DNA from: Phaseolus vulgaris
Taxonomy: Eukaryota; Streptophyta; Magnoliopsida; Fabales; Fabaceae
DNA: 64,000 nt
NCBI RefSeq assembly: GCF_000499845.2
Contig: NC_023749.2
Span: forward strand, 31,141,699 to 31,205,698
Direction: 5' to 3'
In this document: piece by piece, positions 2,863-58,489 of the stretch
Position numbering within the stretch: position 1 is the first letter of the stretch
Layout: each line of letters begins with the position of its first letter
Translations under genes and position numbers: made by a program
Notes under the pieces: generated by a model
What the model was told of the DNA's origin: nothing
The model's database searches: none
The model's input: the letters and a program-made list of their open reading frames with translations, nothing else

Positions 2863-5495
2863 TTATAAAGTAGCAGATGAGGTGGAGTTGGTTGAGTCTT
2901 CGGCGGGAACGACCTTTCCATCTACTACTTCGTTGTTTATTGACACCATGCTGAGGTCGAGATCGGGGAATAGGCATGCGAATTGTTCCCGAGCGGCTTC
3001 AAATCCAGCAACCAGAATCTGAGCGGAGCTTAGCTTAAGTTCTTCAATTTGCCTTTGAAATTCTTCAACCTGTTGCTTGAGCTCCTTGTTCTGCTGCTCC
3101 AGCTCTTCGACCTGTTTTCGGAGTTGTTCGTTGGTCTCTCGAGCATGAAGAAGGTCGTCAGCAACCTTCTTGGATTCCGCTTGAGCTTGGGTCAACTCGG
3201 CAGCCATCTTTCCTTTTTCCTTGATCGCCTCGGTGAGATCAGCCATGGCGTCATCCCTTGCTTTTTCTACTTGCCCGAGTAGTTTTTCGCGGTCAATCGA
3301 CCTTTGCTCCAGTTTTTGTACCTTATCGGCACTAGCTTGAATGTGAGCCTCCAGGTCGCTCGCCTTGGTGCGCAAAGGCACAATTTTGCTTTCTAGCTCA
3401 ACTTTCTCTTGGGCAAGGTCATGAACTTTGCGGCGGAGGTCAGTGGCCTCTTGACGCGCCAATCTGAGCTCGGTGCTCATCGCGTCTTCTACTCGGGAAT
3501 GCTCCATTTCCGCGAGCGTCAGATTGGCAGATAATTTCTCCACCTCGAGCCTCATGGTGCTGTTGTCAGTCCTGAGGTTGAAGAGATCATCTTGAAGCCT
3601 CTTGGTGGAGCTCTCCATAGCCCTCGTTATAATCGATGGGATATCCTCTGCGATGGTTTTCAGTTTAGCAGTCAGAGGTTCCCACATCCTTGTGACCTCG
3701 AGGGAAAGGTTTGCGGCTTGGAGAGGCGCCAGGGGGGCTTGTTGAGGGTTCTTGTCGCCACCTTCCTTAGCAATATTTTCAGTGGTTGCTTCCTGGCGTG
3801 GCGACGCAATCGGGGACTCGGTGATTAGGATTGGAGAGGTGTGAGCGACCTCATCCCCGATTGGAACGATTCCTGCAGCTGAAGTGTTGGAAGGAGGGCC
3901 CCCTCCTGCTGATATATGTGGTGTAGAGGCGCTCGGGGGGTCCTCCAAGAAATTTGGCTCTTGGGCCTCAGTTGCAGGTGGCGCAGTGGCCAATGGAACT
4001 GCTTGGACTGGTGGTGAAGGGGCTTGTGGTGTTGGCGATGAGGGAGGAGGAGCAGGCGTTGATGGGGGTGGTGAGGTTGGAAGAGGGGGTTGAGCAGGTG
4101 GAGAAGATGGTGCCACCCTCTTCCTTTTCGTGACAAGGCCATCCTCTGTGACCTCGTCGTCCTCTTCTTCCTCTTGGACGACTTGGGGGGCTTTCCGCTT
4201 AGGCCTCTTAAGGACCAGCTTCTTGCGTTGGGTGGGCTCCTTGGGCGGTGATCGCCCATGAATGATGGCCTTCTCGACCGCCGAGTTTGGCACCGTCTGG
4301 GAACCGGTCGCCAACCCGTGGTTTCGGGCGAGCGCCTTTAAATCGGCGAGCATGTTCTTACCCAACATGGTATCTGCATGAAACGAAAGTGCATGAGTTA
4401 GCTCAAAGGAGAAAAGGATAAGTGTGTGAGGCAATGAGACAGCAAAAACAGGCATGTGTGGAAAAGATAAAACCAAAGTCTTGTGCGTGTCGCACAAGAC
4501 GCCCAGAAACAGTATCAGAAGCAATATCAAGACAAGAGTGTAGCGTCCTAACCTATTTGGAATTCCAGCTGGTCCTCAAAGAACTCGAAGGAGATCAGGG
4601 TGGGGGTCAAGAATGTTATGTTGGCATCTGCCACCCTCTTCCAGAATAGGCAAAGGTCTCGGTCCAAAGCTCCCATGCTATCAGGACTTCTGGGCCTCCT
4701 GAAGCAGCTCTTGGACTCCTTTTTCCCCTTGTCCACCCAGTACAAGGGGAAGCCGTCGAGAAGGGAAGTGTCTTTATCATTTGCGCGTACTTGGATGAAC
4801 TTCCCCTTCCAATCCTTGTACGACTGCTGGAAGATGGTGAAAATGGATCTCCCAGCAATGGCATTCAGGCTGACCCACAGGCGGTCTCCTGGGTGCTTGG
4901 CCTCAAACAGGAACAAAAACACGTCCACCGACGCGGGCAACCCCAGGTGGGCGCACGTTATTTCGAAGGCTCGGACAAACGCCCAGCTGTTGGGGTGAAG
5001 CTGGGCGGCAGCGATGTTGAGCTCGGTCAGGAGTTCCCTCTCAAATCGAGTGAGAGGGAACCTGAGCCTGACCTTCTTGAAGAAAGTGGTGTAGACGAAG
5101 CAGAAGGGCCCGTCGGCGCTCACTTTGTCATCGGCACACACTGGCAGAGCGGCGGGGCAAGGCAGCACCATCATTCTCTCGTCGTGCTCCTTGTGAAACG
5201 ATTGGTGGGCCTCGTCCCCATTGGTCAACCGCAGAACCGCTCCCGCAGTGTTCACCGACGAGGTCTCCTTTAGAAGGGTTGGGTTAGCCCATGGGTATAA
5301 AGTCTTGAAGTCTGGCAGAGGGATGGGGGCTCCTCCAGCGTTAGATGGAGTCGCCTGAGCCAGGGGAGTTTGGGAAGATGCAGGCCTCACAGCCTGCGAA
5401 GAGGGAGCACCACGAACTTGTGTTGAGTCATGTGCTTGTGAAGGAGGGTTTCGCGCTGATGGAGGGGGGTTCGGGGTAATCTTGGTGCGAGTCAT
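2863..5495 (-). CDS. Antisense spliced gene of Tat element: Transposase_28-like plus coiled coil
   Basis: There are two coding exons on the strand opposite to pol: 5495-4553 and 4373-2863, joined across a 179-bp GT-AG intron (phase 1). The prediction is about 817 residues. Exon 1 (residues 1-314) carries a domain like the Putative gypsy-type transposon family (Transposase_28): LRFPLTRFERELL, then QLHPNSWAFVRAFEI, then SYKDWKGKF and FPLYW. Exon 2 starts with a basic stretch resembling nuclear signals (KRPKRKAP, TKRKRVAP) and a Pro-rich linker. A heptad coiled coil of roughly 220 residues and an acidic C-terminus follow. Read unspliced, exon 2 would begin with a hydrophobic run encoded by the intron, which I consider an artefact. 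The copy at 49419-51390 has the same architecture and intron phase. The function is unknown. Expression and splicing are inferred. Confidence 0.72.
4374..4552 (-). other. Predicted intron inside the antisense gene (phase 1)
   Basis: On the minus strand the donor reads AATAG|GTTAGG (GT at 4552-4551) and the acceptor TTTCATGCAG|ATACC (AG at 4375-4374). Exon 1 is 943 bases (remainder 1) and exon 2 is 1511 bases (remainder 2), so removal keeps the frame. It removes the stop codon that separates the two ORFs. Confidence 0.7.
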
Positions 5496-5503
5496 GGTAG
5501 CAA

Positions 5504-5743
5504 CTGCAAAGGAAGAAGAAAGAGAAAAAAAATAATAATCAGGAGGGTTACAAAGGCTGACTCGATCACAGAAGGAAGGTGAAAGACGAACGAATGTGAG
5601 TTCGTTGCGACGATCGACAAAGCCCTAAGTTACGCAGAAGGAGAAATGGAAAAACAGCCCACAGCGTATGCACCAGACAGTTACAGGATGATGCAAATCG
5701 GTGAAAATGCAAGGAAACCCGGCAGATGAAGGAAAGTAGTTAC
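5504..5743 (-). other. Predicted 5'-UTR intron of the antisense gene
   Basis: The minus strand reads GAAAG|GTAACTAC (GT at 5743-5742) and, after a pyrimidine-rich run, CCTTTGCAG|TTGCTACC with AG at 5505-5504. The intron is 240 bp and the ATG (5495) follows 8 bases after it. An unspliced leader would contain several upstream ATGs. No clear TATA box is visible upstream in this copy. Confidence 0.55.
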
Positions 5744-21214: not shown

Positions 21215-23740
21215 TAACAAACTATGTGAGATTTGTCTACCCAACTCAAAGGAAGTAGTGTTGATTGGTAAAAGAATCAACAATGTTTATCTTTTAGATA
21301 TCTCTTCTCCTACATCTATTGGATGTCTTCTTTCCAAACATGATGAATCTTGGTTATGGCATAGAAGAATAGCCCATATTCACATGAATCATTTGAATAA
21401 ATTGATTTCAAAAGATCTTGTGATAGGGTTACCCAAATTCAAGTTTGAGAAAGACCACATATGTGTAGCATGCCAAAAAGGGAAACGGATTAAACATTCT
21501 TTCAAACTGAAAAATGTTGTTTCAACCTCAAAACCCCTTGAGCTATTGCACATGGATTTGTTTGGTCCTTTAAGTACCATGAGCCTTGGTGGAAACTATT
21601 ATGCTCTTGTTGTTGATTATTTTTCCAGGTATACGTGGACACCCTTCTTAGAGTCAAAGAGTGATGTTTTTCTGCATTCAAGAAGCTTGCTAGAAGATTG
21701 TAGAACACATGTTGCAGCAACCTTGGTTCCATTAGAAGTGATCACGAAGGGGAGTTTCAAAATGAAAAATTTAGCACCTTTTATGAAAAGATGGGAATCT
21801 TTCACAACTTCTTTGCACCAAGAACTCCTCAATAGAATGGAGTGGTGGAAAGGAAGAACATATCCCTTGAAGAACTTGCAAGAACCATGCTAAGTGAATC
21901 TTCCTTACCCAAGTACTTTTGGGCTGATGCATTAAGCACTTCTTATTATGTGATGAATAGAGTGCTTATAAGGCCAATCTTGAAAAAGACTACATATGAA
22001 CTCTTCAATGGAAGAAAGCCAAACATTAGCCACCTAAAAGTGTTTGGTTGCAGATGTTTCATTATGAATAATGGGAAAGAAAATATGGGCAAGTTTGATG
22101 AGAAAGATGACAATGACATCTTCATTGGCTATTCTTCAACTAGTCAAGCCTATAGGATCTACAACAAGAGACTCATGATTGTGAAGGAGTTTGTTCATGT
22201 GGTGTTTGATGAAGTTGATCATGCAGACCAGGTTTCCTAAAAGAACCACGCAGAAGAAGATGAACAGAGCATCATTTTGCAGAAGCTGGAATCTTATCCA
22301 GAAAAACAATGATTGATTCTTCAAAACAACCGGTTGAAATTCTGCAGCAGGATGAGTTGCCCAAAGAATGGAGGATTCCAAGAGATCTTTCGATGGATAA
22401 CATCATAGGGCAGATCCAGAAGGGTGTTTCAACACGCAGTACTGTCTGAAACTACTGTAGGCACACGATGTTTGTCTCCCAAATTGAACCAAAGTCAATT
22501 GAAGAAGCTTTAAATGATGATAAGTGGATTGCTGCCATGCATGAGGAGCTGAATCAATTCACAAGAAATGATGTATGGTTTCTTGTTTCTAAGTCAGACT
22601 AGATGAACATCATTAGAACCAAATGGGTTTTCAGAAACAAACTGGATGAATCTGGAGTGATAACAAGAAACAGGGAAAGACTTGTTGCCAAAGGTTACAA
22701 TCAAGAAGAAGGGATTGATTATGATGAAACCTTTACTCCTGTGGCCAGATTGGAAGTTGTAAGATTGTTGCTTGCCTTTGCTTGTATGAGTGGGTTTAAA
22801 CTGTTCCAAATGGATGTTAAAAGTGTTTTCCTCAATGGAATTATCAATGAGGAAGTCTTTGTTTCTCAACCACCCGGTTTTGAGGATCATCTACATCCTA
22901 ACCATGTATACAAGCTTAAAAAGGCTTTGTATGGTTTAAAGCAATCTCCAAGGCAGTGGTGTGAAAGGCTAAGCAACTTTCTCTTGTCTAATGGATATGA
23001 AAGAGGAAAGATTGACAAGACTCTCTTTATCAAGAAGTCAAATTCTGAAATTATCTTGGTCCAAATATATGTTGATGACATAATATTTGGTGCTACCAAT
23101 GATAGTCTTTGTGAAGAATTTGTGGCTGCCATGCAAGGAGAATTTGAAATGTCAATGATGGGGGGCTTTCTTTCTTTCTTTGACTGCAGGTCAAGCAATC
23201 CAAAGATGGAATCTTTCTTAGCCAAGCAAAGTACTGCGGAGAAATTCTCAAGAAGTTTGAGATGGAGAATTGCAAGGAAGCTAGCACACCCATGCCAACA
23301 AGTTGCTACATGGATGCTGACCTAGCTGGGAAAGAGGTTGATCACGCCAAATATAGAGGGTTGATTGGTTCTTTACTCTATCTCACTGCAAGCAGACCGG
23401 ATATCATGTTTGTTGTATGTCTATGTGCAACATTTCAAGCAAATCCTAAAGAATCTCATCTCAAGGTTGCAAAACGCATTCTTAAGTATCTCAAGGGAAC
23501 AATCAACGTGGGCCTATGGTATCCTTTTCATTCCCCTATTCACTTAATTGGTTATTCTGACTCTGATTTTGCAAGATGCAAGTTGGATACAAAAAGCACA
23601 AGTGGAACTTGCCATCTTCTTCGTTCAAGTCTTATTTCTTGGCATAGCAAGAAGCAAGCTTGTGTGGCTCTTTCCACTGCAGAGGCTGAGTACATAGCTG
23701 CAGGAAGTTGTTGTGCACAAATTCTTTGGCACAAAAAAAG
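21215..23740 (+). pseudogene. Ty1/copia polyprotein relic, SIRE type
   Basis: Order: GAG-pre-integrase/zinc region (21258-21500; HRRIAHIHMNHL, CVACQKGK), integrase core (LLHMDLFGPLS, about 21545), integrase C-terminal part (21842-22240), then RT (22603-23200) with YVDD near 23070 and copia signatures (RLVAKGYNQEEGIDY, MDVKSVFLNG). RNase H follows (23262-23740) with SDSDFARC and KKQACVALSTAEAEYIAAGS. Frames change at about 21660, 21840, 22240, 22600, 23160 and 23260 and several stops intervene, so it is dead. Phrases such as SLCEEFVAAMQGEFEMSMMG point to the SIRE/Maximus lineage, common in legumes. Both ends and both LTRs are missing. Confidence 0.92.
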
Positions 23741-25575: not shown

Positions 25576-27140
25576 ACTTTCCTTCCATTTATGTCATACA
25601 ATCGATTACAATTAAATTAGGAAATACTTTGTCGCTATTAGATTTATAATTGAAGTACGAGCACTAGATTTTTAAGCATATTCCACCAGATTATTAAGTT
25701 TCTTGTTTTAAAAAAATAGAATTATAGGGATTTTATCCGAACCCAGAACCTAAAACCTCCATCTAACATTTAATTCAGAACCGAGTCAGATTTGGTTTTC
25801 TTCGTTATCGTTGTTGTGATTGTTATTCGGATGGAAAGTAGGAGGAATTGGAGGTAGAATAAAGAATATTTAAATTTATTTAAGTTATTTACTTCTGTAA
25901 ATATACTATATTTTTTTTATAAAGTGATATAATTTAATTGGCTAACACCGGTGTCCAAAATTTATAGAAGAGTGATGATCCTTCTGAAATATTGGGAGTG
26001 AACAACGAATGGAAAAGTTTGTGCTACTGCCAAAATCACCATGACGTGTTTCTAAAGCTTTCTTCATTGTATTTAGACAAAGACATCTGCTACAGCTTAC
26101 AGGGGTCGGTGCTATTGTGTCATTATTACATTATCTACAAAATCTGATTTGAATATGATACATGTGATGGAAATATTTTCCTTCAAAGAATACTCTATTC
26201 CAACTCCTTTAGAAAATCAACATTATCTACAAAAACTGACTTCCAACCATCTCTTATTCTTTTCCTTATTTAAAATTGTGATTAAAATTGTGAGTGTATC
26301 TATTCAACAATTTGTAAATCAGTTTCTTTTATATGCACATACGGTTAAAAAAGACTTATTTGCGTACTATTTAAACATAAATAAATTTCAATCATATTAA
26401 TTTCTGTCACTGTCCAATAAGAATACATACAAATCCATCAACAGAAAATACAAAACGATTTTTCAGAATTAAAATATATTGTATGATATATCATAATCTT
26501 TATTAGCATGTGTTTACTACTATAATTAATTAAATAATTAAAGTTTTAGACAAAAAATTACCTTTGAAGATAACTTGACACACCTAGAGAGTTCCAACAC
26601 AATGCAAAGCTAAAGAAATATAGGAAATGAGCATGGATGGTTCAGTGTGAATTGGATAGGAGATAGGACTCTATTAAATAGAGTTCTTGAAAGTTTAAAT
26701 TCACCCAACCAATGAACATAAGTTTGAATTGGAACTTCATTGCCAAAAGAATCTTTGTGACATTGTCATTATTGTACCCAAAAGGAATCTATGTAGCCAT
26801 GTGGACATAAAGTTCTCAGCAAAGTGTACGCTTGGCATGTGTTTTGAGGAAGAAAAACAATGTTGGTGAGAAAATCAAGTTGTTGTTACACAGCCTTGCA
26901 ATTAAAGTTGCAATAGTGTGAGTAACTTTTTCTCATTTTGTGCCTATGCAAAGTTGTCAACCACGAAGGAAACTTTGAATAGAAGTTGTCAATGGTGAAT
27001 GCAGCTTCCAAGTTGCCAATGGTGAAAGCAACTTCTTTGTTATGAAATTGGAAAAAAATAAATGAAACAAAATGTAGTGTGGCGTGATGGTTTTATATAC
27101 ATGCGTGATGATATTCTATACACAAATGTCACAAAGATTG
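25576..27140. other. Spacer before the MULE relic
   Basis: No gene seen. At 26945-27045 a short sequence with GTTGTCAA/GTTGCCAATGGTGAA recurs three times (positions near 26953, 26978, 27015). Confidence 0.5.
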
Positions 27141-28050
27141 TTAAGGATTTGACTTCTCAGTACAAATTTTAATAATTATGTTAAACTTATATTTAATTCA
27201 GACACAACATTTGCTATATAATGGAACAACAATAGAGTCTTGTACACAAATGCATTCATCCTTTGTTCTACACATTTTCTTGTCTTAATTCTTGTATCCA
27301 AGTAAAAAAAATTGAGGAGAAAGTTTGTGGGACACATTATTTTCTCCTTCTAGTGTAAAGTTCAAACAAAATCGTCAAGGTAATATTCTTGTTTATCATC
27401 TTATTTCCTCCTATTTAGGCAACACACACATAATATATATATATATATATTTGTATAAGGTAATTTTATTTCTTTTAAAATGCAGATGGACACGTGGAAT
27501 GTCGGTGGAACGTCACTAAGCCAACATGAAGAACCAATAATTAGAGACATCGTGGACGACATAAGTGAAGAAGGAGAGAACTACGACTTTGATTGTTAAG
27601 GATTTGACTTCTCAGTACAAATTTTAATAATTATGTTAAACTTATATTTAATTCAGACACAACATTTGCTATATAATGGAACAACAATGGAGTCTTGTAC
27701 ACAAATGCATTCATCCTTTGTTCTACACATTTTCTTGTCTTAATTCTTGTATCCAAGTAAAAAAAATTGAGGAGAAAGTTTGTGGGACACATTATTTTCT
27801 CCTTCTAGTGTAAAGTTCAAACAAAATCGTCAAGGTAATATTCTTGTTTATCATCTTATTTCCTCCTATTTAGGCAACACACACATAATATATATATATA
27901 TATATTTGTATAAGGTAATTTTATTTCTTTTAAAATGCAGATGGACACGTGGAATGTCGGTGGAACGTCACTAAGCCAACATGAAGAACCAATAATTAGA
28001 GACATCATGGACGAAATAAGTGAAGAAGGAGAGAACTACGACTTTGATTT
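27141..28050 (+). repeat. 455-bp tandem duplication at the start of the MULE gene
   Basis: 27141-27595 and 27596-28050 are nearly identical, differing at only a handful of positions. Each copy holds the same leader, an (AT)n run, an intron acceptor and the first coding bases of the transposase. The junction shares the 5-mer GATTG. The first copy ends after about 37 codons, where the repeat restarts. Confidence 0.95.
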
Positions 28051-42955: not shown

Positions 42956-43351
42956 TTAATGAGAGTTATAATTAAAAAAATCATAGAATAAAAACATGTT
43001 TTACTATGTTTATGTTTTTTTTTTATAAAAAGTTTTCATGTTAGGCATCACTATGCAACTAGACATCTCAGTTAGACTGACACCGCAATTACTATGTTTA
43101 TGTTTATAAGTGTTATAATTTGTTTATCTTTATCACTATATTGTTATTATATTTATTATAAGTTATTAATATATTATGCTTAATATTATTATAGGGGAAT
43201 TATTGGTAAGTTTATAATTTATTATATATTTATTTTTAAAAAAACACTATATAGGAATGTTTAGGTTCAGTTGTAAATTTGAGATTATGAAGGAGATGAT
43301 CCTCCCATTATATTGAATTCATATAGAAAAAATATTATGTGTTAAGGGTGT
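42956..43351. repeat. Duplicated host segment, copy A left arm
   Basis: Matches 55778-56181 almost throughout and is cut exactly at GGTGT (43347-43351) by the Tat element. Continues at 52266. Confidence 0.93.
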
Positions 43352-43377
43352 TGTACTGGTAGGCTAAAACCGAGAGG
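43352..43377 (+). repeat. Residual 5' LTR (26 bp)
   Basis: Identical to the first 26 bases of the 3' LTR (51729 onward), after which the sequence goes straight into gag coding. A single deletion after insertion is the simplest explanation, because both target-duplication copies survive. Confidence 0.85.
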
Positions 43378-43488
43378 ATATATAATGAAAATTCTCAAAC
43401 CAGAAGAAGATGGCTTGAAAACTCTGGGGTTTGTGCAGGAACATCTTCCATAAAACATCCGTTTTATGATGTTATAGTCGATACTCCG

Positions 43489-46400
43489 TTGCCTGACAAT
43501 TGGAAGAACTTAACCATTGACAAATATGATGGAAGTACGGATCCTGATGAGCATATTGCAATATACACTACTCAAATCAGCTTGTATACATGGAATGATG
43601 CTGTTATGTGCAGAGTATTTCCTACAACTCTGAAAGGGGCAGCATTAAGCTGGTTTACACGCCTCCCACCTTTGAGTATAGATTGTTTTGATACGTTGAT
43701 AGAAAAGTTCGGTGCTCAATTTGCAACTAGTCGTCCCCATCATTTAACGTCAATCGCCTTAGTGAACATAAGACAAGAGAAAGGAGAGTCTTTAAGAATG
43801 TTCATGGAACGTTTTGGAAAGGTTGCTTTGGGAATCCGAAATCTTAGTCCAGAGGTCACCATGCATCATATGATAACGACATTAAAACCGGGACCATTTG
43901 CCGATAGTCTTTGCAAGAAACCTGCGATCAATCTGGATGAACTAAGGCAACGGGCATCAAAATTTATGCAAATGGAAGAATTAAGGGAGTTTCGAAACCA
44001 AGTAAGGGTTGATGGAGGCGAGAAGAGGGTGACAGAAAGAGAACACCCGCCTGTTGCAAGAAGAGCCCGAGAAGAATTCAGAGCTCGAAAGTTCCAGCAA
44101 TACACACCTCTAAATACGAACAGAGCAAGAATTTTACAGGAAGCCATGGCAGCCGAAATAATACCATCACCAAGAAAAGCAAGAACACCAGAAAGGGCAG
44201 ACCGCACCAAACATTGTGAATATCATAAAAATCATGGTCATCATACAGAAGAATGTATTGGGTTGAAAGATAAAATAGAAGAGTTGATTCATGCCGGACA
44301 GTTAAAACGTTTTGTTCAAAGGGGAAATCCAAGAGTATGGTTGAGTCCAGAGAGAGATACGAGGGGGCGAGAGCTGGGTGAAAGAAGGGTTGAAAGGTTG
44401 GAAAGGAGAGAAAAACAAGTGGAAAAAAGAGACGAAAGAAGGGTTGGAAGGCCAGACGAAAGAAGAGATAGAATCTATCAAAACACTCAATCAGTAAGAC
44501 GAAGCAGAGAGCGAAGTTTGGGAAGACCGGTTAGGGGGTTTATAAATACGATCTCAGGAGGTTTTTCTGGGAAGGAATCCTCATCTGCACGAAAGCAACA
44601 TTGGAGAAATATCAGGTCTGTTAATCATGTTTTCAAAAGAAGAACTTTACCACCAATGCTTTTCACAGACGAAGACTTCCAAGAAATTGATCCAGATCAT
44701 GATGATCCTATGGTAATCACGGTTGAAATAGCCGAATATGCTGTCATGAAGACCCTGGTTGATCAAGGGAGTTCGGTCGATATCTTGTTCTGGGATACGT
44801 TCAAAAGGTTACATTTGAGAGAAGAAGACATAGTGCCTTTTCGAGAGCAAATCATTGGCTTTTCAGGCGAAAGAGTTAACACAAAGGGATATGTTGATTT
44901 GGTGACAACATTTGGAAGAGGTAGCAAAGTTAGAAAAATTAAAATCCGATATCTGGTGGTGGATGCATCCACCTCATACAATGTGTTGCTAGGACGATCT
45001 TCCTTAAATAAGTTAGGAGCAATCGTGTCAACACCACATTTGGCCATGAAATTCCCAACAGAAAAAGGAGAGATAGCTACAGTTTATGTCAATCAAAGAG
45101 ATGCTCGAGAATGTTATGCAGCAAGTTTAAAAATGAATTTGAAGGTGGATAAAGAGGCTGAAAAAATAGTAGCCATGGTGGACTTGGATCCCAGATTGAA
45201 TGAGGAAAGGCTGGAACCGAAAGAAGAAACGACAGCAGTACTGTTAGGCCAAGACGACAGACAATGCACTTATGTAAGTGGAAGTATGCCTGATGAATTG
45301 CTTAGCAAACTTATCACACTGTTGCGTAGTAATAAGGATTTATTTGCCTGGCGGCCGTCTGATATCCCTGGAATTGATCCAGAGGTAATGTGTCACAAAT
45401 TATCTGTTTGCCGGGAAGCAAAGCCAGTATCTCAAAAACGAAGAAAGTTAGGAGAAGAACGACGACAAGCAGCAATTGAAGAAACTCAAAAGTTAATACA
45501 AGCTGGTTTTATCCGAGAAGCTAAGTATACCACGTGGTTGTCTAATGTGGTACTCGTCAAAAAACCAAGTGGACAATGGAGAATGTGTATAGATTACACT
45601 GATTTGAACAAAGCTTGTCCGAAAGACACATATCCATTACCTAACATAGACCGACTAGTTGATGGGGCATCTGGCCAAGAGATGATGAGTTTCCTTGATG
45701 CTTATTCGGGGTATAATCAAATACAGATGTATGCACCTGATATCCCGAAAACAGCTTTCACCACTGATGTTGCAAATTATTGTTATAAAGTCATGCCTTT
45801 CGGCTTGAAGAATGCTGGGGCAACATACCAAAGATTGATGGACAAAGTGTTTAAAGAACAGATTGGAAAGAACCTAGAAGTGTATGTTGATGACATGGTT
45901 GTTAAATCAAATGAGATACAGAAACACCTGGAAGACCTTGAAGAAGTGTTTGCTCAAATAAGGAAATACAATATTCGACTTAATCCAGAAAAATGCGTTT
46001 TCGGCGTCAGAGGAGGAAAATTTTTGGGATTTATGTTGACAAACAGAGGAATTGAAGCTAATCCTGACAAATGTGAGGCAATCATGCAGATGGGAAGACC
46101 AAAAAACCTAAAAGAAGTGCAAAGGCTAGTAGGGAAGTTGAATTCACTATCAAGATTTTTGCCAATATTGGCTGAGAAAACTAAACCGATTATAAACTTG
46201 TTGAAAAAATCTGAAAATTTTGTGTGGAGTGAACAATGTGAGCAAGCTTTATCTCAAATAAAGAGCATGGTGGCTGAACCTCCAATTTTAGTAAAACCTG
46301 TACCCAATCAACCCATCATAGTCTACTTAGCTACTTCAAATGAAGCAATAGGAGCCGCTTTAATCCAAGAAAACCTAGAGCAGAAACCGATATATTTTGT

Positions 46401-48402
46401 GAGTAGAACCCTACAAAATGTCGAAACCAGATATCCCAAAGTTGAGAGAGTTGCCCTAACATTAGTGTATGCTGCAAGACGCCTTCGACCATACTTTCAG
46501 AATCATCAGGTAATAGTGAGAACAGATTTTCCAATATATAAAATTTTAAAAAAACCAGAGCTTGCAGGTCGAATGGTGACATGGTCAATGGAGCTTTCGG
46601 AATATGGAATCAAATACGAACCAAGAGGACCAATCAAAGCCCAATCTCTTGCAGATTTTATCATTCAGATGCCAACATCAGCACAACAGGACCAGTGGAC
46701 TTTGTATGTAGATGGCGCGTCAAGCAAAAGAGGAAGCGGAGCAGGAATAGTACTTGAAGGACCCGATAACTTCCAAGTCGAAATGGCGCTCAAATTCGAG
46801 TTCAAAACATCCAACAATCAGAACGAATATGAAGCTCTTGTTGCAGGATTATTATTAGCCAGAGACATGGGAGTGGAAAATGTCCTTTGCAAAACGGATT
46901 CACAGCTGTCGGTGGGACAAGTGCACGGGGAGTATCAGGTAAAAGACCCTTTGTTAACGAAATATTATCATAAAGTCTTAAATATTATGCAATGTTTTAA
47001 CAAGGCCGAGATGAAATACATTCCAAGAGAATTAAATATGAAAGCAGATTCATTGTCTAAGTTAGCAAGCCAACAAAGACAAGTGCAACACAATTCCATC
47101 ATACAACAAACCCTCAGTCATCCGACAGTTAGTCTCGACGAATGCTTCAATATTGTAACAGCCAAAGATGACTGGATAAACACATACATCGAAATCATAA
47201 AAACCCAGGAGCAAGGTGTTCAGCCGGATGTCAAAATAGCAAAGAAAGTCGCTAATTTCATTCTAATCGGTGATGAGCTATATAAAAGGGGATACTCTAC
47301 GCCCTTGTTAAAATGTTTGACCAAAGAACAAGCAGAATATGTGGTCAAAGAACTTCATGAAGGAATTTGTGGACTGCATTGTGGAGCTCGAACAATGGCA
47401 ACAAAGGTTTGTAGAGCTGGTTATTATTGGCCAACAATCCGAGAGGACTGTGAAGTTTATGTCAAAACATGTAGAAAATGCCAAGAGTTTGGGAGCTTAA
47501 ATCATATCCCAGCGCAGGAGTTGCAAGAAATCATATCTCCATGGCCATTTGCAAAATGGGGAATTGATATACTTGGCCCATTCGCACTTGGACGAGGCCA
47601 AACAAAATTCATGATAGTAGCTGTAGACTACTTTACAAAATGGATAGAAGCAGAAGCATTGACAAAGATAACGGCACAGCAAGTCCAAACGTTTATATGG
47701 AAAAATATAATATGTCGATTCGGAATCCCACATACTATTGTAAGTGACAATGGCCGACAATTCATTGACAAAAAACTTATGGAATTTTATGCAGATTTGG
47801 GAATCAAGCCCACAACCACTTCGGTCGAACATCCACAAACGAATGGACAAGCTGAAGCCGCAAACAAGGTTATTCTTGGACAATTAAAAAAGAGGTTGGG
47901 GACTGCTAAAGGATTATGGGCAGAGAAATTACCGGAGATTTTATGGGCATATCGTTGCACACCGCAAACATCAACTGGAGAAACACCGTTCAATCTCACT
48001 TATGGAACAGACGCAATGTTACCAGTAGAAGTTAATGAACCCACATTAAGAAGACAAATGGAAGACTGGAATATCAACAATGAGTGTTTGAGAACCGATC
48101 TTGATCTTATTGAAGAACTTAGAGAAAAAGCAAAAATAAAAGAGACGGCAGTCAAACGAAGAGCAATGAAGAGATTTAATGCAAAAGTCAGATTTAGGGC
48201 TTTTAAAGAAGGGGATCTGGTGTGAAGAATGCGAACTGATGCTCGAAAGGATCCACGACATGGAAAATTGGCATCCAATTGGGAAGGACCTTTTAGAGTG
48301 CTAGAAAACTTACAAAATGGAGCTTATAGGTTAGAAACTTTGGAAGAGAAAATGATACCGAGAACCTGGAATGCAAGTCATCTAAAATTTTATTTCAGTT
48401 AG
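43489..48402 (+). pseudogene. Gag-pol polyprotein, nearly intact, one internal TGA
   Basis: Open for 1578 codons from 43489 (the first codon is TTG; the frame is open further upstream and the true N-terminus was deleted). Gag capsid-like part about residues 2-150; a CHHC cluster C243...C256. Protease active site DQGSS at 425-429. RT about 683-860 with YVDD at 799-802. The first RNase H (about 945-1060) lacks the usual first Asp. A second, archaeal-type RNase H at about 1069-1195 has D1075, NEYEAL, TDSQ and ADSLS, the hallmark of the Tat lineage. Integrase: zinc region 1287-1335 (HEGICGLH, CRKC); catalytic D1360, D1420, E1456 (35 residues apart). TGA at 48223-48225 follows GDLV; the same frame then continues to a normal end at 48402. 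That stop and the 5' deletion make it non-autonomous. Confidence 0.95.
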
Positions 48403-48495
48403 AATAGATGTAAATTACTTATCATATAATGAAGAGGAATTCTCAAGAAACAATCCGTTTTGTTATCTTTCATTATGTACATATACATTCTTCGT

Positions 48496-48735
48496 CTCTC
48501 GGCCTTGGATGCTTTCACTTCAGGTGAAATCCCACCCGAGAATAGATTTACATAAACTCTCGGCTTTGGATGCTTTCACTTCAGGTGAAATCCCACCCGA
48601 GAATAGATTTACATAGTTTTTTTTGGGTTTGGATGCTTTCATTCCAGGTGAAATCCCACCCGAGAATCGATTTACATAGCTTTTTCGGGCTTGGATGCTT
48701 TCATTTCAGGTGAAATCCCTCCCGAACAAACAAAT
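48496..48735. repeat. 61-63 bp minisatellite, four copies
   Basis: The word GGATGCTTTCACTTCAGGTG starts at 48507, 48568, 48631 and 48693 with small changes. Each unit contains the hairpin TTTCAC-TTCAG-GTGAAA. It occupies the same place as the minisatellites at 1643-2290 of the other Tat element but shares no sequence with them. Confidence 0.92.
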
Positions 48736-49418
48736 ATAATGCTCATTCTTGAAAATCTTCAAAACACACGAAAACCGAAAGATCAGAATTAGCTTTCGTT
48801 TTTTGAAAATCCCTGCTATCAGAATCTTCCTTTAAAATTTGTCAAATCTTAAAACATTTTATCTCAAAACCGAAAGATCAGAGCTAAAACACAATTCTAA
48901 AAACCGAAAGTCACTCGTACAACTTACATTACTAAACCGACAGTTGCATATTCCAGTCAATAATATATCAATTACGAATCAACCTTAATAAATTAAAGGT
49001 TTTTGATTAATAATTTTATACTTCGCAATTTTTTGACAAATAAAAAAAAAAAAACACACCGAAAGGTCCAAGTCATAACAGTTAATATCTTCATGCTCCA
49101 ACAAAATGTTGTCTTTAAACTAATAATAGAAACCGAGAGGTAAACTCAAATAATTCTAACATTTCTAACGCTTTCAACAAAAGAACTGAAAATTAGCAAG
49201 CCTCAACGATTATAACAGAATTATCAGAACATAACAGAATAAAATTACGATAATAACCACAAAAGCTTAAACATTTATATTAACAAAAGTTCCCAAAAAA
49301 AAAAAAGGAATTACATCACGAATGCAAATATCCAACAAAGCTTAGCATTCCAAAACAATTATACTTCTCCACAAGTAACCGAGAAGTATCCGACAAACTA
49401 AACCTTAAAACCCTATAC
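48736..49418. other. Non-coding 3' spacer of the younger Tat element
   Basis: No gene seen. The word AACCGAAAG(ATCAGA) recurs at about 48774, 48860, 48902 and 49059. It probably includes the 3' UTR of the antisense gene. Confidence 0.5.
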
Positions 49419-51390
49419 CTAATTTTCAATATTAATATCTTCAGCATCATTATCTGGAATCTCATTAGCAGGAACTAGCTCACCATTATAAAAGTCCTTC
49501 TTAACATCAAAATTACCTTCATCAATAGGAATTTTATAAAAGTATTTTGCTTGTTGAAGAGCCTTCTCAAAGCCAAGTTTGTGTTGTTCAAATATAAAAC
49601 TTTCGGCTTCAAAAACATTGGTCTTTAGCTGATTAATCTCCTCATCCATAAGTTTGATGGTGTTCTTGTCAGATTCATTAGCAGAAGATAGCGCCGATAC
49701 CTTCTCAGTCAAAAGTTGATTCTCCTTGCACAATTGAGCATTCTCCGTAATACATTTCAGGTTTTCATTCTTCAAATCAGAAATTTCTTTTCCAAGACCT
49801 TCATTTTCGATTTCTTGTTGTTCTTTCTGTTCTACCACCTTCTCTAACTCTAATGATAAAGAGTTCATTCTATCCTTATACTCAGCAAGATCATTCTTCA
49901 GCTTCTCAAATTCGGACAACGACACGCAGTTTCCATTCTTCTCTTTCATCATTTTTCCAATCAAAAGATTTCTACTTGATAATTCAATAACAGAATCCGC
50001 TAATGAAGCAGCATCCATATTTTTCAGCATATTGTAAGTTGATTCACTAAAAGATGTTTGAACGAATTTTGCATATTTATTCGTAGCACTAAAAATCGTT
50101 TCGGGAAGAGGTTCACATGAAACATTCCCACTATGGCGATGGCGCCGAGAAGATGAATGTGACTTCTTGCTGCTCCTATCCCATTTCTTTGATTTCTTCG
50201 AAGGACCAGCAACATCAACATTACTTGTCGGTTCCACCACGTCAACATTAGCAACTGGCTCCACGTTTTCTACTTCCACAACAGGATTTACCACATTCTC
50301 GCGTCGGGGAGTAACATCACCCACTTTGTTAAGCAGTTTCGAAAAGTAAGATCGAGCTTTCGGATTAGTACTTGCCATCAGAGCTGAAAATCAACAAAAA
50401 ATTTAGCAAAGTTAAAAAACTTATCCTAAAAAGCAAGAAAATGCGGAATAACCACGTACCAGTAAGATCTTCTCGAGGATGTGATGAAGTATACAACTGA
50501 AGCAAAGCACGAGTGGGAACTTGATACGAGAAACGACTAAAAACTTTAATAACATGACGATCGGCCACACCCATCGAATGAAAGGATATTGAGTTAAACT
50601 TCACAGGATCTTTCGTCCAATACAGAGGAAATTTTGGAGAATTTCCATTAAAGAAATATTCTCTTCCTAGTGGCTCTATTAGAATTTTGAAAAAACTTCC
50701 TTTAAAATCCTTATACGACGACGTAAAAGGCTTAAGAAAACACACATTGGACTTGCTAATAAGGGACAACCACCCTGGCCGTTTACCAGGCCGAGAACTA
50801 TAATTGTATAAAAACGCAGAAGGACTAGGAGAAAGTGACAATAATTTACACAAAATAATGAATGCTTGCATCGCAGCCCAACCATTAGGATGAAGCTGAG
50901 TAGGAGCAACATTAAGAAAATTAAGAACGCCCATTTGAAAATTGTTCAAAGGCAATCGAATATGAAGATCTCTGAAAAAACAAGCATAAAAATAAAAAAA
51001 TTCATAGCTATCACCTTCTCGGCCATGACACACATTATCAACATCACCAACACGCCGAAATGAAATGATATCATTTTCAATATCAGAATAATAAATTTGA
51101 GAACGGGAAAGAAAACTCCGAAGTTCGTTAGCAGAACGATACTTCGAGAAATACTCTCGGACTTTAGGATTGACCCATTGATAACCAGGACGAAGGTTTT
51201 TCTGGGGTATGATAAATCCAAATTCTTGAGGAACATCAACAGCAGGAGCTCCACTTGAATCATTCATACAAGATGGAGTAGCAGAAGAAGATTTTGACTC
51301 AGGAGGAACTTCTTCTCGAACCACTCGGCCAGTTGATTCACCACCCGCGCTTGAAAATTCATCAGTAGCAGAAGAACTTGAAAGAGACAT
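49419..51390 (-). CDS. Antisense spliced gene of Tat element: Transposase_28-like plus coiled coil
   Basis: Two coding exons on the minus strand, 51390-50460 and 50383-49419, joined across a 76-bp GT-AG intron (phase 1), predict 631 residues. The start is the ATG at 51390 (MSLSSSSATDEF); a longer frame to 51447 has only a CTG. Exon 1 carries a Transposase_28-like domain: IRLPLNNFQMGVLNFL, QLHPNGWAAMQAFII, SYKDFKGSFFK, FPLYW. These words line up with those of the copy at 2863-5495. Exon 2 has a basic stretch (KKSKKWDRSSKKSHSSSRRH), then a coiled coil of about 150 residues. Its C-terminal region (GFEKALQQAK...NGELVPANEI) aligns with GFEAAREQF...DGKVVPAEDS of the other copy. Both exons are fully open. 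TATAAATA lies 93-100 bp upstream. The function is unknown; nuclear location is a guess from the basic stretch. Confidence 0.75.
50384..50459 (-). other. Predicted intron of the antisense gene (phase 1)
   Basis: Minus strand: TTACTG|GTACGTGG donor (GT at 50459-50458) and TTGATTTTCAG|CTCTGATGG acceptor (AG at 50385-50384). Exon 1 has 931 bases and exon 2 has 965, so the joined length divides by three. It is the same phase and place relative to the domains as in the older element. Confidence 0.75.
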
Positions 51391-51482
51391 TACCTTCGCA
51401 AGAATTGAACGAAGATTGACAATATACTTCCTTCTAAACAGCAGCAAAGCTCACACAATCATAAAAAACCCAATGGCAAACC

Positions 51483-51490
51483 TATTTATA
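51483..51490 (-). promoter_or_regulatory. TATA box of the antisense gene
   Basis: On the minus strand TATAAATA (followed by GG) at 51490-51483, about 95 bp upstream of the ATG at 51390. It lies between the gene and the 3' LTR, not in the LTR, so the antisense gene appears to have its own promoter. Confidence 0.65.
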
Positions 51491-51716
51491 ACCCAGGCAA
51501 AACCCTAGAATTTCAAACGATATAAACCATGTGGCACCATTCAAACATATGTCATCTAACGGTCAAAATAGCAAGTTCCTGTCAAGTCATGAAAACTGAG
51601 CAAAATAAAGCGCAGAAATCAAAGCGTTCCATATCAAATCAAATCAAACGTCAAACATTATTATATTATATTAAGACACAAATATTTCTTTAAACTTGAA
51701 ATAAAAATATTTTTGT

Positions 51717-51728
51717 CTCGGGGGCTAG
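51717..51728 (+). promoter_or_regulatory. Polypurine tract of the younger Tat element
   Basis: CTCGGGGGCTAG directly precedes the LTR start TGTACTGG; compare 6081-6098. Confidence 0.7.
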
Positions 51729-51950
51729 TGTACTGGTAGGCTAAAACCGAGAGGTTTAGGCCGAGAACAACATTGAGTAAACAAGGGAAAAAGGTTGAAA
51801 CCGAGAGGTTTAAACCGAAACCTGAAAGGATAATAAAAATCATAATAAAGCCCAATTTAAATAAGGAACTTGCACAAGGGGGTGTAAAAGTAATAAAAAG
51901 GTGTGAGAAGAAAGTCCAAAAGTACTGTAGAAGGCCCATCAACGAAACCC

Positions 51951-51960
51951 TATAAATAGG
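51951..51960 (+). promoter_or_regulatory. LTR TATA box
   Basis: TATAAATAGG, about 75 bp before the U5 signature; drives the element's sense RNA in intact copies. Here it would read outward into host DNA. Confidence 0.7.
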
Positions 51961-52060
51961 AGGTCAGCACAAGAAAAAGGTAAGAGTGATTTTATCTGAT
52001 GAACGTTAAACCTTTTCTGACTTTGGCATCGGAGCGACTTGCAGGTACCCCCCACCTGTT

Positions 52061-52160
52061 GTGAGGAGAAGCCGAGAGCACCAGCCGAGAGGAGAAGCCG
52101 AGAGCACCAGCCGAGAGGAGAAGCCGAGAGCACCAGCCGAGAGGAGAAGCCAAGAGTTTT
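52061..52160. repeat. 26-bp tandem repeat in the LTR, 3.5 copies
   Basis: Units beginning GAGAGGAGAAGCCGAGAG start at 52061, 52087, 52113 and 52139, the last cut short. The first differs slightly (GTGAGGAG). Confidence 0.93.
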
Positions 52161-52265
52161 CATCAAGGAGAGAAGTACCCGGCCCAAGATAGTATTCAGC
52201 CCAAGATTGAAGGATTAGTCTTGATTAACCCATTTCAAGTGTTCTTGGTCCTTGTTGTAAGAACA

Positions 52266-53757
52266 GGTGTGTTTCGATTAAAGAGAGAATTTGTGGGGAT
52301 TTGAGGTAGTGGATTTATGAGGATGTGAGAGAGAAGTGTGAAATGTTTGGATTGAGATATGTTAGAGTAGATCTATGAGGAAAGTTTATTGGAGTTTCTG
52401 ATTAATGTGATGTTTGTGAGGAAATTTTGAATTATTTTAAAGGTGTAAAATGTTACTTTACAAATTTACCCTTACCAATTAAAAAATTAATAATGAAATA
52501 AGTTTATTTTTGTTTAAAAATAAATAACTTTCACATATTCATAAATTTAAAATTTATAATTAAAAATAAAAAAATATGTATTAAATGTAAATAGGTATAA
52601 TTTAAAAATTATAATTAAAAGAAGTATGTATTCAACAAATTAAATAAAAACAAGACTTAATGTAATTTCTTAAAATATTAAAATGTATTATAAAATTAAA
52701 AAATAAATCATTAAATAAATAAGATATTATATAAATATATTATTTTTTTAACATTAAAAACCCTGTAATAATGAAAATAAAATATATTACAAGAAAAAGT
52801 ATAACATAATTAACGATAAAAAAAAATCATAAAACATTATAATTAAGTAAATTATAACTCATAAACATAATAATCATACCTAGAAATATATTAATATAAA
52901 CACAACAATAAATTAAATAAAAAAAATTCTAAGTAATTTTTTAAAATATTAAAAATATATTATAAAATTAAAAAATAAATCAAATCTTATATAAATAAAA
53001 AATAATATTTTTTAATATTAGAAAATCTTACGGGAATGGAAAATGAAAAACACTATAAAAGGAGAATAAATGAGTGTGAATTCAAAAATAATATATGTCG
53101 GCATGATTTTCCTCTACATCTATTCATTTTGAGAAAAAAATTTATTTACTAGAATTGTGTATGGTAGGTCCATTTGACGTGAATCTAATAGAAGTTTAAT
53201 GAATAAAATAATTTTAATATATAATTTTCATAATAGATTAATATATATAATGGAATATCAAATTTTACATGAAAAAACTTAAATATTATCATTTATACTT
53301 TTTAGAGTGTTGTTATTAACAAAGATTTTAGGTATAAATATATAGAATAAGTTCATTTCTAGAGTATTAACGTGGAACGTGGAAGTTTTAAATGTTAATT
53401 GAAAAAATAAAGTTTACATGACGTTTTCATTAATTTTTGTAAAATTCAATTTAGATATAATATTTTTACCATGTTATTTAGATAGTTTCTATCTTATATT
53501 ATTTAAGAAGAAGCTTGTTTAATCTTATTAGAACCTGTTTGCAAATCAATTTTTATTTGAAGAAGCTTTTTAAAATATTAAATTCTAATTTTTTATAATT
53601 ATTTTACTATTATTTTTTAAATATTTGTTAAATCTTTCGGGGTTTTTTCAACTAGAGCGAGTTATTATTTATTTAACTTAAACCCCTCCATTTATACGTA
53701 CTTATTTTGACTTTATTATAATATTTAATTTATTACTTCAATACACTAATTGATATA
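52266..53757. repeat. Duplicated host segment, copy A right arm
   Basis: Matches 56177-57980. It lacks two blocks of about 170 bp present in copy B (about 57070-57235 and 57250-57420). AT-rich; no gene. The first bases after TAA, GGGTGTG(C/T)TTGGATT, resemble a PIF/Harbinger MITE end. Confidence 0.88.
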
Positions 53758-55403: not shown

Positions 55404-55925
55404 TGTTTGAGGTGTCATTCTAGCTGAGATGTCAAGTTGCATAGTTATACTTAATATGAAAAAATTTTATAAAAAAGAAAGTATTATAGATGTTTCTATT
55501 ATGGATTTTGTGTATATCAAGAGAAAATTAGGAATATAAATTATCAATTTGATATCATCCTAAAAATATTTGTAAGTTTTATTTATTTTTAATTAGTTGG
55601 TTGTAGAAAAACAGTGAAGAGAGAAATGTTTTACAAGCATTTCTTTAACACTACCCAATAACACTTATTACCAATATAATAAGTAACACTTATTATACTA
55701 ATTTTTTAATATTATAGATTCTGAAAGTTTGAAAATTTTTAAATAAAAAAGAAAACAATAGTACAATGAAATGGAGATTAATGAGAGTTATAATTAAAAA
55801 AATCATAGAATAAAAACATGTCTTACTATGTTTATGTTTTTTTTTATATAAAAAGTTTTTATGTTAGGTATTACTATGCAACTTGACATCTCAGGTAGAC
55901 TGACACCTCAATTATTATGCTTATG
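55404..55925. mobile_element. Inverted-repeat element (MITE-like) at the edge of copy B
   Basis: Left GAGGTGTCATTCTAGCTGAGATGTCAAGTTGCATAG-like stretch at 55409-55446 is an imperfect reverse complement of 55862-55912 (CTATGCAACTTGACATCTCA). Copy A has only the right arm (43041-43085). Target duplication not identified. Confidence 0.55.
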
Positions 55926-57980
55926 TTTATAAGTGTTATAATTTGTTTATCTTTTTCACTATATTATTATTATATTTATTATATTTTATTAATATATTAT
56001 GCTTAATATTATTACAAGGGAATGATTGGTAAGTTTATAATTTATTATATATTTATTTTCAAAGAAGAACACTATATAAGAATGTTTAGGTTCAGTATTA
56101 AAATTGAAATTATGAAGGAGATGATCCTCCCTTGATATTGAATTCATATAGAAAAAAAAATATATTATGTGCTAAGGGTGTGCTTGGATTAAAGAGAGAA
56201 TTTGTGGGGATTTGAGGGAGTAGATTTATGAAGATGTGAGAGGGAAGTGTGAAATGTTTGGATTGAGATATGTTAAAGTGGATCTATGAGGAAAGTTTAT
56301 TCGAGTTTTTGAGTAATGTGATGTTTGTGACGGAATTTTGAATTATTTTAAAGGTGTAAAATGTTACTTTACAAATTTACCCTTATTAAAAAAGGTAATA
56401 ATGAAATGAGTTTGGTTTGTTTTTGTTTAAAATAAATAAATTTAGCATATTCATAAATTTAAAAATTATAATTAAAAATAAATAAATATGTATTAAATGT
56501 AAATAGGTATAATTTAAAAATTATAATTAAAAGAAATATATATTCAACAAATTAAATAAAAACAAGACTTCATGTAATTTCTTAAAATATTATAATGTAT
56601 TATAAAATTAAAAAATAAATAATTAAATAAATAAGATATTATATAAATAAATATATTATTTTTTTAACATTAAAAATCCTGTAATAATGAAAAATAAAAT
56701 ATATTACAAGAAAAAATATAACATAATTAACAATAAAAAAATTCATAAAACATTATAATTAAATAAATTATAACTTATAAACATAATAATTATAGACAGA
56801 AATATATTAATATAAACACAACAACAAATTAAATAAAAACAAAGATTCTAAGTAGTTTTTTAAAATATTAAACATATATTATAAAATTAAAAAATATACA
56901 CATTTTATATAAATAAAAAATAATATTTTTTAATATTAGAAAACCTTACCATAATGGAAAATAAATAAAAAAAATACTACAACAGGAGAATAAATGAGTT
57001 TGAATTCAGAAATAATATATGTTGGAGTGACTTTTCCTCTACATCTATTCATTTTTTTTGAGAAAATGATATTTACTGTTTAGTGGTACATCTTCTCCTT
57101 CTTTTTCCCGCAAAATTTTGAATCCAAATAGCTATTATCCTCTCACTTATTTGTTTGTAAATAGTACATTCATTCACAGAAGCAAACAGACGTTAAAAGT
57201 AGAAGGAAATGTTTATGTGGTGGTGTGAGAAAAGAATTGTGTATGGTAGGCCTCATGAATATTTTTTGTCACACAAGTAAATTCTTCCTATTATCATTAT
57301 GTAGTATTATTGTGAGACAACTTAGGGAAAGTAGTCTCATAGGTGTAATAAATCTATGGCATTGTGATGTTAATGTCAATGACTTTATGATAAGAGAGGT
57401 AGTCAACTGGTTGAGAGTTTGACATGAATCAGGTAGAGGTTTAATGAATAAAATAATTTTAATATATAATTTTCATAATAGATTATAATATATATAATTG
57501 AATATCAATTCTTACCTATATTTAATGAAAAAACTTAAATATTATCATTTATACTTTTTAGAGTCCTGTTATTAACAAAGATTTATGTATAAATATATAG
57601 AATAAGTTTAGAGTATTAACGTGGAAGTTTTAAATGTTAATTGAAAAATTAAAGTTTACCTAACTTTTTCATTATTTTTGTAAAACTTAATTTAGATATA
57701 ATATTTTTACCAAGATAGTTTCTAACTTATATTATTTAAGAAGCTTGTTTAACCTGATTAGAACCTGCAAATCAATTTTTATTTGAAGTAGATCTTTAAA
57801 ATATTAACTTCTAATTTTTTATATTTATTCTATTATTATTTTTTAAATATTTATTAAATCTTCTGGGTTTTTTTCAACTAGAGCGAGTTATTATTTATTT
57901 AACTTATTCCCCTCCATTTATACGTACTTATTTTGACTTTATTATAATATTTAATTTATTACTCTAATACACTAATTGAT
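55778..57980. repeat. Duplicated host segment, copy B (empty site)
   Basis: Uninterrupted counterpart of 42956-43351 plus 52266-53757. The insertion point of the Tat element is GGTGT at 56177-56181, occurring once. AT-rich, no coding potential recognised; a 65-codon frame at 57225-57422 has no support. Confidence 0.92.
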
Positions 57981-58489
57981 ATAGTATTATTAATATTATT
58001 TTGAAAATTTTGATTAAAAATATGTTATGAAATAGTATAAGATTAATAATATAATATAAAATAAAAGCAGTAATTGAAACTAAAAAATTACAATTAAAAT
58101 AATTCATCTACTAATAAAAATTTAGAGATTTAAAATATATATTTTTAAAAACCAAAACTATAAACATCTCAAAACGTAAAATTTATAAGCTAATTACTTT
58201 CAAGTTTCAATTTCTAACTAGTTTTTGTGAAACATCACTACTAATAAAAACTAATTTTAGAGACAAAAAATTAATTAGTTGCTATAGTTAATAAATTAGA
58301 GACCAGAGACTTAAAAAATTCAGTTTCTATATTAGTTTCTATTATTGTTAAATAGTTTCTAAATTGATATCTAATTAGCTATGAAGGTTTGTTCACTGGA
58401 CTCACTATTTGATTCTTTGGGAGACGACTTGGGGTCATCTGACCACTGTTATACTATCATCTTTCTAGCATTGGACAAGTCTAAGCTGG
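57981..58489. other. Spacer with MITE scraps and Athila-like flank
   Basis: 58240-58390 again contains the AATTTTAGAGACAAAAAATT family. 58400-58480 (minus: GTCGTCTCCCAAAGAATC) resembles the spacer of legume Athila-type elements and probably belongs to the next feature. Confidence 0.45.

Follow-up and report, generated by a model that had tools for sequence, protein, structure and literature searches.

A conserved and probably spliced intron in an antisense gene of a Tat/Retand-type retrotransposon from Phaseolus vulgaris

The window, a stretch of 64,000 nucleotides from Phaseolus vulgaris, contains an LTR retrotransposon of Tat/Retand type with the following parts.

43352..52265, + strand: Tat/Retand-type LTR retrotransposon, with a 26-nt 5' LTR remnant at 43352 followed by a deletion into the internal region
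43347-43351 and 52266-52270: target-site duplication GGTGT (5 bp), flanking both element ends
43489..48225, + strand: gag-pol ORF with gag, RT, RNase H, RVT_3 (second RNase H-like) and integrase (ORF list, Pfam)
51729..52265, + strand: 3' LTR, 537 bp

The 537-bp 3' LTR and the 5-bp duplication were present, whereas the 5' LTR was reduced to 26 nt. The RVT_3 stretch was placed by Pfam profile match at 1075-1192, between RNase H and integrase, and we take it to be the aRH domain. The two RNase H-like stretches in gag-pol thus fit the Tat clade, of which aRH is described as a mark in the part of PMC6317226 available. An antisense TRP28 ORF between pol and the 3' LTR, a Tat/Retand feature, was also present; the assignment to Retand rather than another Tat subclade comes from TRP28 alone and is putative. 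The element lies inside the first copy of a two-copy repeat (42956-43351 with 52266-53757, and 55778-57983), the second copy being uninterrupted there. A tandem array with a 61-63 bp unit was observed directly after pol (48495-48725), and a 26-bp tandem repeat close to the 3' LTR end (52063-52156). Elsewhere in the window, fragments of an element of copia type, with gag_pre-integrs and RVT_2, were found at 21258-23325, and identical 300-bp direct repeats with a spacing of 455 bp at 27136-27435 and 27591-27890.

On the strand opposite to pol, two ORFs were recognized, which can be read as the exons of one gene.

51483..51490, - strand: TATA box TATAAATA, 100 nt upstream of the first ATG (ATG1)
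51391..51396, - strand: leader donor-like AAG/GTA immediately 5' of ATG1
50460..51390, - strand: exon 1, 931 nt (310 codons + 1 nt), ATG at 51390, TRP28 at residues 144-199
50384..50459, - strand: phase-1 GT-AG intron, 76 nt, with branch-point-like TTAAC at 50415-50411
50376..50378, - strand: conserved Met (ATGGC), 5 nt past the acceptor, a possible start of an exon-2-only product
49419..50383, - strand: exon 2, 965 nt, with 2 nt before CTG ATG (50378) and a stop ending at 49419

The donor at 50459 was CTG/GTACGT and the acceptor ending at 50384 was TTGATTTTCAG. By arithmetic, the removal of 50459-50384 joined both minus-strand frames into 631 residues. The TRP28 domain (PF04195) in exon 1 reached 36.3 bits against a Pfam cut-off of 26.2, and its structure was predicted with confidence; a clear match was not found when the predicted structure was compared with solved structures. 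Exon 2 gave only sub-threshold Pfam matches, to coiled-coil families, and contained a basic stretch at residues 60-82 and a long helix at 154-281 (numbered from the Met at 50378). An ending of the form GFxxALxQ...LVP was shared, by eye, by the C-termini of the window exon 2, V. angularis models and the L039 family, one of the distant families described below.

The original prediction had described two ORFs, separated by 76 bp, as one spliced gene of about 631 residues. Its coordinates, GT and AG sites, frame-keeping join and length were all confirmed. The 76-bp intron interval was exact, but in the unspliced sequence the ORFs were not separated: the first frame continued through all 76 nt, met a stop ending at 50365 and shared 14 nt with the second ORF. 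The in-frame join proves little by itself, because 129 GT..AG removals of 60-400 nt connected the same ATG to the same stop; 4 of these 129 passed a loose consensus filter. With the first frame open, the frames overlapping by 14 nt and 129 removals available, the window alone therefore cannot decide. What exceeds chance is the conservation of the 50459/50384 intron among relatives rather than the in-frame join.

The source genome of the window (Phaseolus vulgaris, 537.7 Mb) was searched for copies, and the first 30 of 41 DNA matches, one of which was the window itself, were used as close copies. Both GT and AG were intact in 29 of the 30, and the interval was 76 nt long in 28 and 77 nt in 2. 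When 35 copies with 76-nt introns were compared with the window, GT was changed in none and AG in two. Losses of the splice sites were seen at the acceptor in L031, L059 and L067, and at the donor in L072 and L002/L053; many close copies were decayed. The dN/dS values of the diverged window-family copies (L027-L038 as listed) were 0.13-0.21 for exon 1 and 0.09-0.15 for exon 2, in a sample of 26 of the 30 copies that excluded L009, L031, L033 and L037. Both exons therefore code, as indicated by the low dN/dS in both parts. Measured against the diverged copies, exon 2 had about double the synonymous divergence of exon 1 (L036: 0.69 vs 0.33).

More distant relatives were obtained with the exon 1 protein, which gave 129 matches, and the junction pieces of 14 of them, with 91-58% identity in exon 1, were examined. 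A relative of exon 2 lay downstream in all 14 junctions, and from its first residue in 13. GT was present in 13, AG in 12 and both in 11 of the 14. Thus, the check on splice-site conservation in other copies, which had been suggested with the original prediction, was favourable at both distances, and again, through a homologous phase-1 intron, in the families about 25% identical that are described next. The introns of these junctions were 73-78 nt long and took all three values modulo 3. The 3' part of the interval (TTTTAAC...GCTAAAT...TTTCAG) was recognisable in most of the 14 junctions, a YTNAY branch-point-like motif occurred in 14 of 15 rows (the 14 junctions and the window), and a Met followed the exon 2 acceptor in 14/14.

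PF04195 loci about 25% identical to the window exon 1 were also found in the same genome: 150 of 9106 candidates were scored, and 28 rows, representing 25 different loci, were used. The anchor at the exon 1 end was present in 21 different loci, and GT stood at that place in 20 of the 21. An interval running from GT or AT to AG, 83-229 nt long, led into an in-frame exon 2 start in 18 of the 21 anchored loci (one of the 18 has AT for GT; duplicates were removed by hand). As for the remaining loci, 3 lacked an acceptor by the pattern used and 4 more lacked the anchor. The homologous intron in these families was phase 1 and GT-AG, with a length of 83-183 nt, and by hand it was placed in L039 and L058 at residue 310 plus 1 nt, the same as in the window. 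The distance from the acceptor to the exon 2 Met was 5, 8 or 14 nt depending on the family, always in frame with exon 1 (by hand); in L058 and the DYLSKM-type models, the Met did not stand directly past the acceptor. In the L039 family, the interval measured 183 nt, which is divisible by three, and had no stop, so that the ORF extended to 775 residues. The absence of stops in L039-type loci is uninformative because the loci were selected for long open frames. The pN/pS values of this family were 0.18 in exon 1, 0.82 in the interval and 0.26 in exon 2 (12, 11 and 9 of 13 copies, respectively), and the contrast had Fisher p values of 3e-5 and 8e-5. The L039 interval thus evolves like non-coding DNA, nearly neutrally.

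A second antisense gene of another family was located within the window.

2863..5743, - strand: second antisense gene, TRP28 plus coiled coil
5743-5504, - strand: leader intron, 240 nt, donor CGAAAG/GTAACT, acceptor CCTTTGCAG before the ATG
5495-4553, - strand: TRP28 exon, ending in phase 1
4552-4374, - strand: phase-1 intron, 179 nt, donor ATAG/GTTAGG, acceptor CATGCAG
4373-2863, - strand: coiled-coil exon

The underlying minus-strand ORFs were 5495-4548 and 4530-2863, and TRP28 scored 29.1 bits against the cut-off of 26.2. Read-through of the intron met a stop at the second codon. CTAAC was found 28 nt upstream of the interval end in the 179-nt intron. This gene repeats the plan of the gene at 49419-51390, with a 5' leader intron in addition.

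Among protein records, 185 proteins were found, of which 109 carried the anchor used; the models were mostly from cowpea and were predictions. By regular expression, 44 of 54 named gene models were spliced at this place, as compared with 0 of 55 intronless ORF calls from DNA. The other ten models comprised six classed as 'other', five of them with the same junction by eye, and four that read through or ended, one of them spliced by eye. The interval was retained in the Phaseolus coccineus model P0209. The bean model P0003 had the exact junction of the window (REDLT/ALMAS). Gene models are weak evidence, because P0003 derives from the degenerate, decayed copy L027 and carries a second intron that is probably artificial.

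Judged by sequence comparison, 49419-51390 is a real, conserved, intron-containing antisense gene. It is highly probable that both minus-strand ORFs belong, as exons, to a single Tat/Retand accessory gene from which a phase-1 intron is spliced out, so the claim of a single spliced gene was supported by the relatives. The gene would have its own promoter, located between pol and the 3' LTR, from which an antisense pre-mRNA is made, and the spliceosome would excise the 76-nt phase-1 intron and fuse the TRP28 domain to the basic, long-helix region in a protein of 631 residues. The RNA that is reverse-transcribed would run the opposite way; there the intron would read CT..AC and stay in. Its persistence through many copying rounds would be possible because an antisense intron is not removed from the replicating RNA. 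The comparison shows the position, phase and signals of the intron and constraint on both exons; from there we infer transcription, splicing and a fusion protein. The fusion protein may be a nuclear protein that regulates the element or serves as its cofactor, a suggestion that we regard as tentative though plausible.

Another explanation is that, in the window family, splicing mostly leaves the interval in place, where it would code, like an exitron, for a hydrophobic tail on a TRP28 protein, while exon 2 is translated separately from its own start-like ATG. The open interval frame and the 14-nt overlap of the ORFs agree with this, and the frame was open in window-family copies with an unbroken exon 1, in the L039 family and in P0186, P0241 and P0209. 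The interval was also strongly conserved: 3-7 of its 76 sites differed in diverged copies, so that it was conserved more than synonymous sites, and read in frame it had a pooled dN/dS of 0.21, the level of exon 1, from few and pseudo-replicated changes. Since the interval is conserved and open in the window family, intron retention may matter too. However, read-through reached a stop after 2, 17, 31, 43 or 47 codons among the relatives, and a tail whose end position varies in this way is not conserved. The near-neutral interval of the L039 family, the invariably in-frame distance from acceptor to Met and the immediate stop in the second window gene also argue against retention as the main mode, and this explanation is considered improbable. 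That there is no gene at all, and that two chance or decayed antisense ORFs flank a chance GT-AG pair, might be proposed in view of the 129 possible in-frame removals and the many decayed copies. It is contradicted by purifying selection on both exons, by the intron conserved in families about 25% identical and by the near-neutral L039 interval, and was rejected as hardly credible.

The third explanation extends the single spliced gene rather than opposing it: one antisense pre-mRNA might be alternatively spliced into several proteins. The 50459 donor would give the fusion, retention of the interval TRP28 alone, and splicing from the leader donor AAG/GTA (GT at 51393) to the acceptor at 50384 a coiled-coil-only protein that starts at the 50378 Met. 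TATAAAT lay 87-114 nt upstream of the ATG1 position in 10/10 sampled loci of the window superfamily, and was not found in the distant families examined (4 + 5 loci). AAGGTA preceded ATG1 in the same sampled loci (10/10, three of them from one subfamily), at a varying distance from the ATG, and in 28 of the 30 close copies. In 23 of 28 rows from the distant families, AAGGTAYG stood at the start of a leader intron (about 194-235 nt), and in 25 of 28 a leader acceptor rich in pyrimidines lay just 5' of ATG1; in each count, three rows were repeat fetches of loci already counted. This acceptor was absent from the window superfamily, where AAG/GTA persists before ATG1, so that the leader donor, if used, would reach only the exon 2 acceptor, 5 nt before the conserved Met. 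The Met past that acceptor in all 14 junctions is also in favour. On the other hand, AAGGTA may be a mere leader or initiation context, and L058 and the DYLSKM-type models lack a Met directly past the acceptor. Alternative splicing of this kind is possible, although we consider it rather doubtful. The reach of the leader donor is also the basis for a broader and equally speculative proposal, in which legume Tat TRP28 genes would be ancient, intron-bearing antisense genes with an optional TRP28 exon. The conserved leader donor (AAAG/GT) would select the TRP28 or the coiled-coil exon, one transcript would yield the fusion, the coiled-coil-only protein or, by retention, the TRP28-only protein, and the antisense position would let the element keep introns and regulated splicing.

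Antisense ORFs of such elements have been described previously. In common bean, FGENESH and GENSCAN reportedly revealed a 631-residue ORF2 opposite the polyprotein in pvRetro13 (Gao et al. 2014, PMC4093653), and an ORF2 was reported for 14 other Ty3/gypsy families as well, according to the parts available of that paper. The length of ORF2 equals the joined length obtained here, a likeness taken from the description alone; the LTR of pvRetro13 is 579 bp, compared with 537 bp here. The terms 'intron' and 'splic' do not occur in the main text of PMC4093653. The original prediction had regarded a spliced fusion as not generally described. This was only partly upheld: the 631-residue ORF2 was printed in 2014 and NCBI models already join the exons, but the 2014 paper makes no mention of an intron. 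For Retand, the available part of a survey placed a PF04195 ORF downstream of pol, in antisense, in every cluster analysed except two, and described coiled-coil-like domains in other antisense ORFs (Vicient 2025, PMC11963269). There, TRP28 and the coiled coil were treated as separate ORFs, 'intron' did not occur in that part, and 'splic' occurred twice, once in a reference title. The gene23 of maize Grande is antisense, with its own promoter and a nuclear protein, according to the available part of PMC7264820, which also called for antisense and spliced transcripts to be examined. An antisense intron was not mentioned in the antisense-ORF descriptions in the available parts of PMC11963269, PMC7264820 and PMC6317226. 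Ogre, also a Tat-clade element, has a regulated spliceosomal intron, but that intron separates gag-pro from RT on the sense strand (PMC6317226, in part). Spliced and unspliced coding antisense transcripts with nuclear products are described for HTLV-1 hbz and HTLV-2 aph-2 (PMC10186651, in part); the likeness would concern the way of working only, with a basic stretch and a long helix here, and a sequence relation is not expected. Antisense homing endonuclease genes with spliceosomal introns lie inside group I introns (PMC9548176, in part), where introns are likewise kept on the strand opposite to the mobile element's own RNA. No report of an intron in an antisense TRP28 gene was found in the literature searched, which left out most subscription papers. 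Within this literature, the fusion had already been published, in the form of a length listed in a table, and the intron had not. What appears to be new is the conserved intron, together with the leader donor that precedes ATG1 and the alternative products that both would allow.

In ORF-based surveys, the TRP28 and coiled-coil ORFs are counted as distinct accessory genes whose function is unknown. Should they instead belong to a single gene as its exons, the domain architecture, expression studies and element annotation would change, and a cDNA built from predicted ORFs alone would miss the protein. An antisense position relative to the replicating RNA would also be a simple reason for a retroelement to keep introns: a sense-strand gene would lose them at each round of reverse transcription, while an antisense gene would keep regulated splicing. 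Regulated splicing could thereby be put to the test in a group of elements common in plants.
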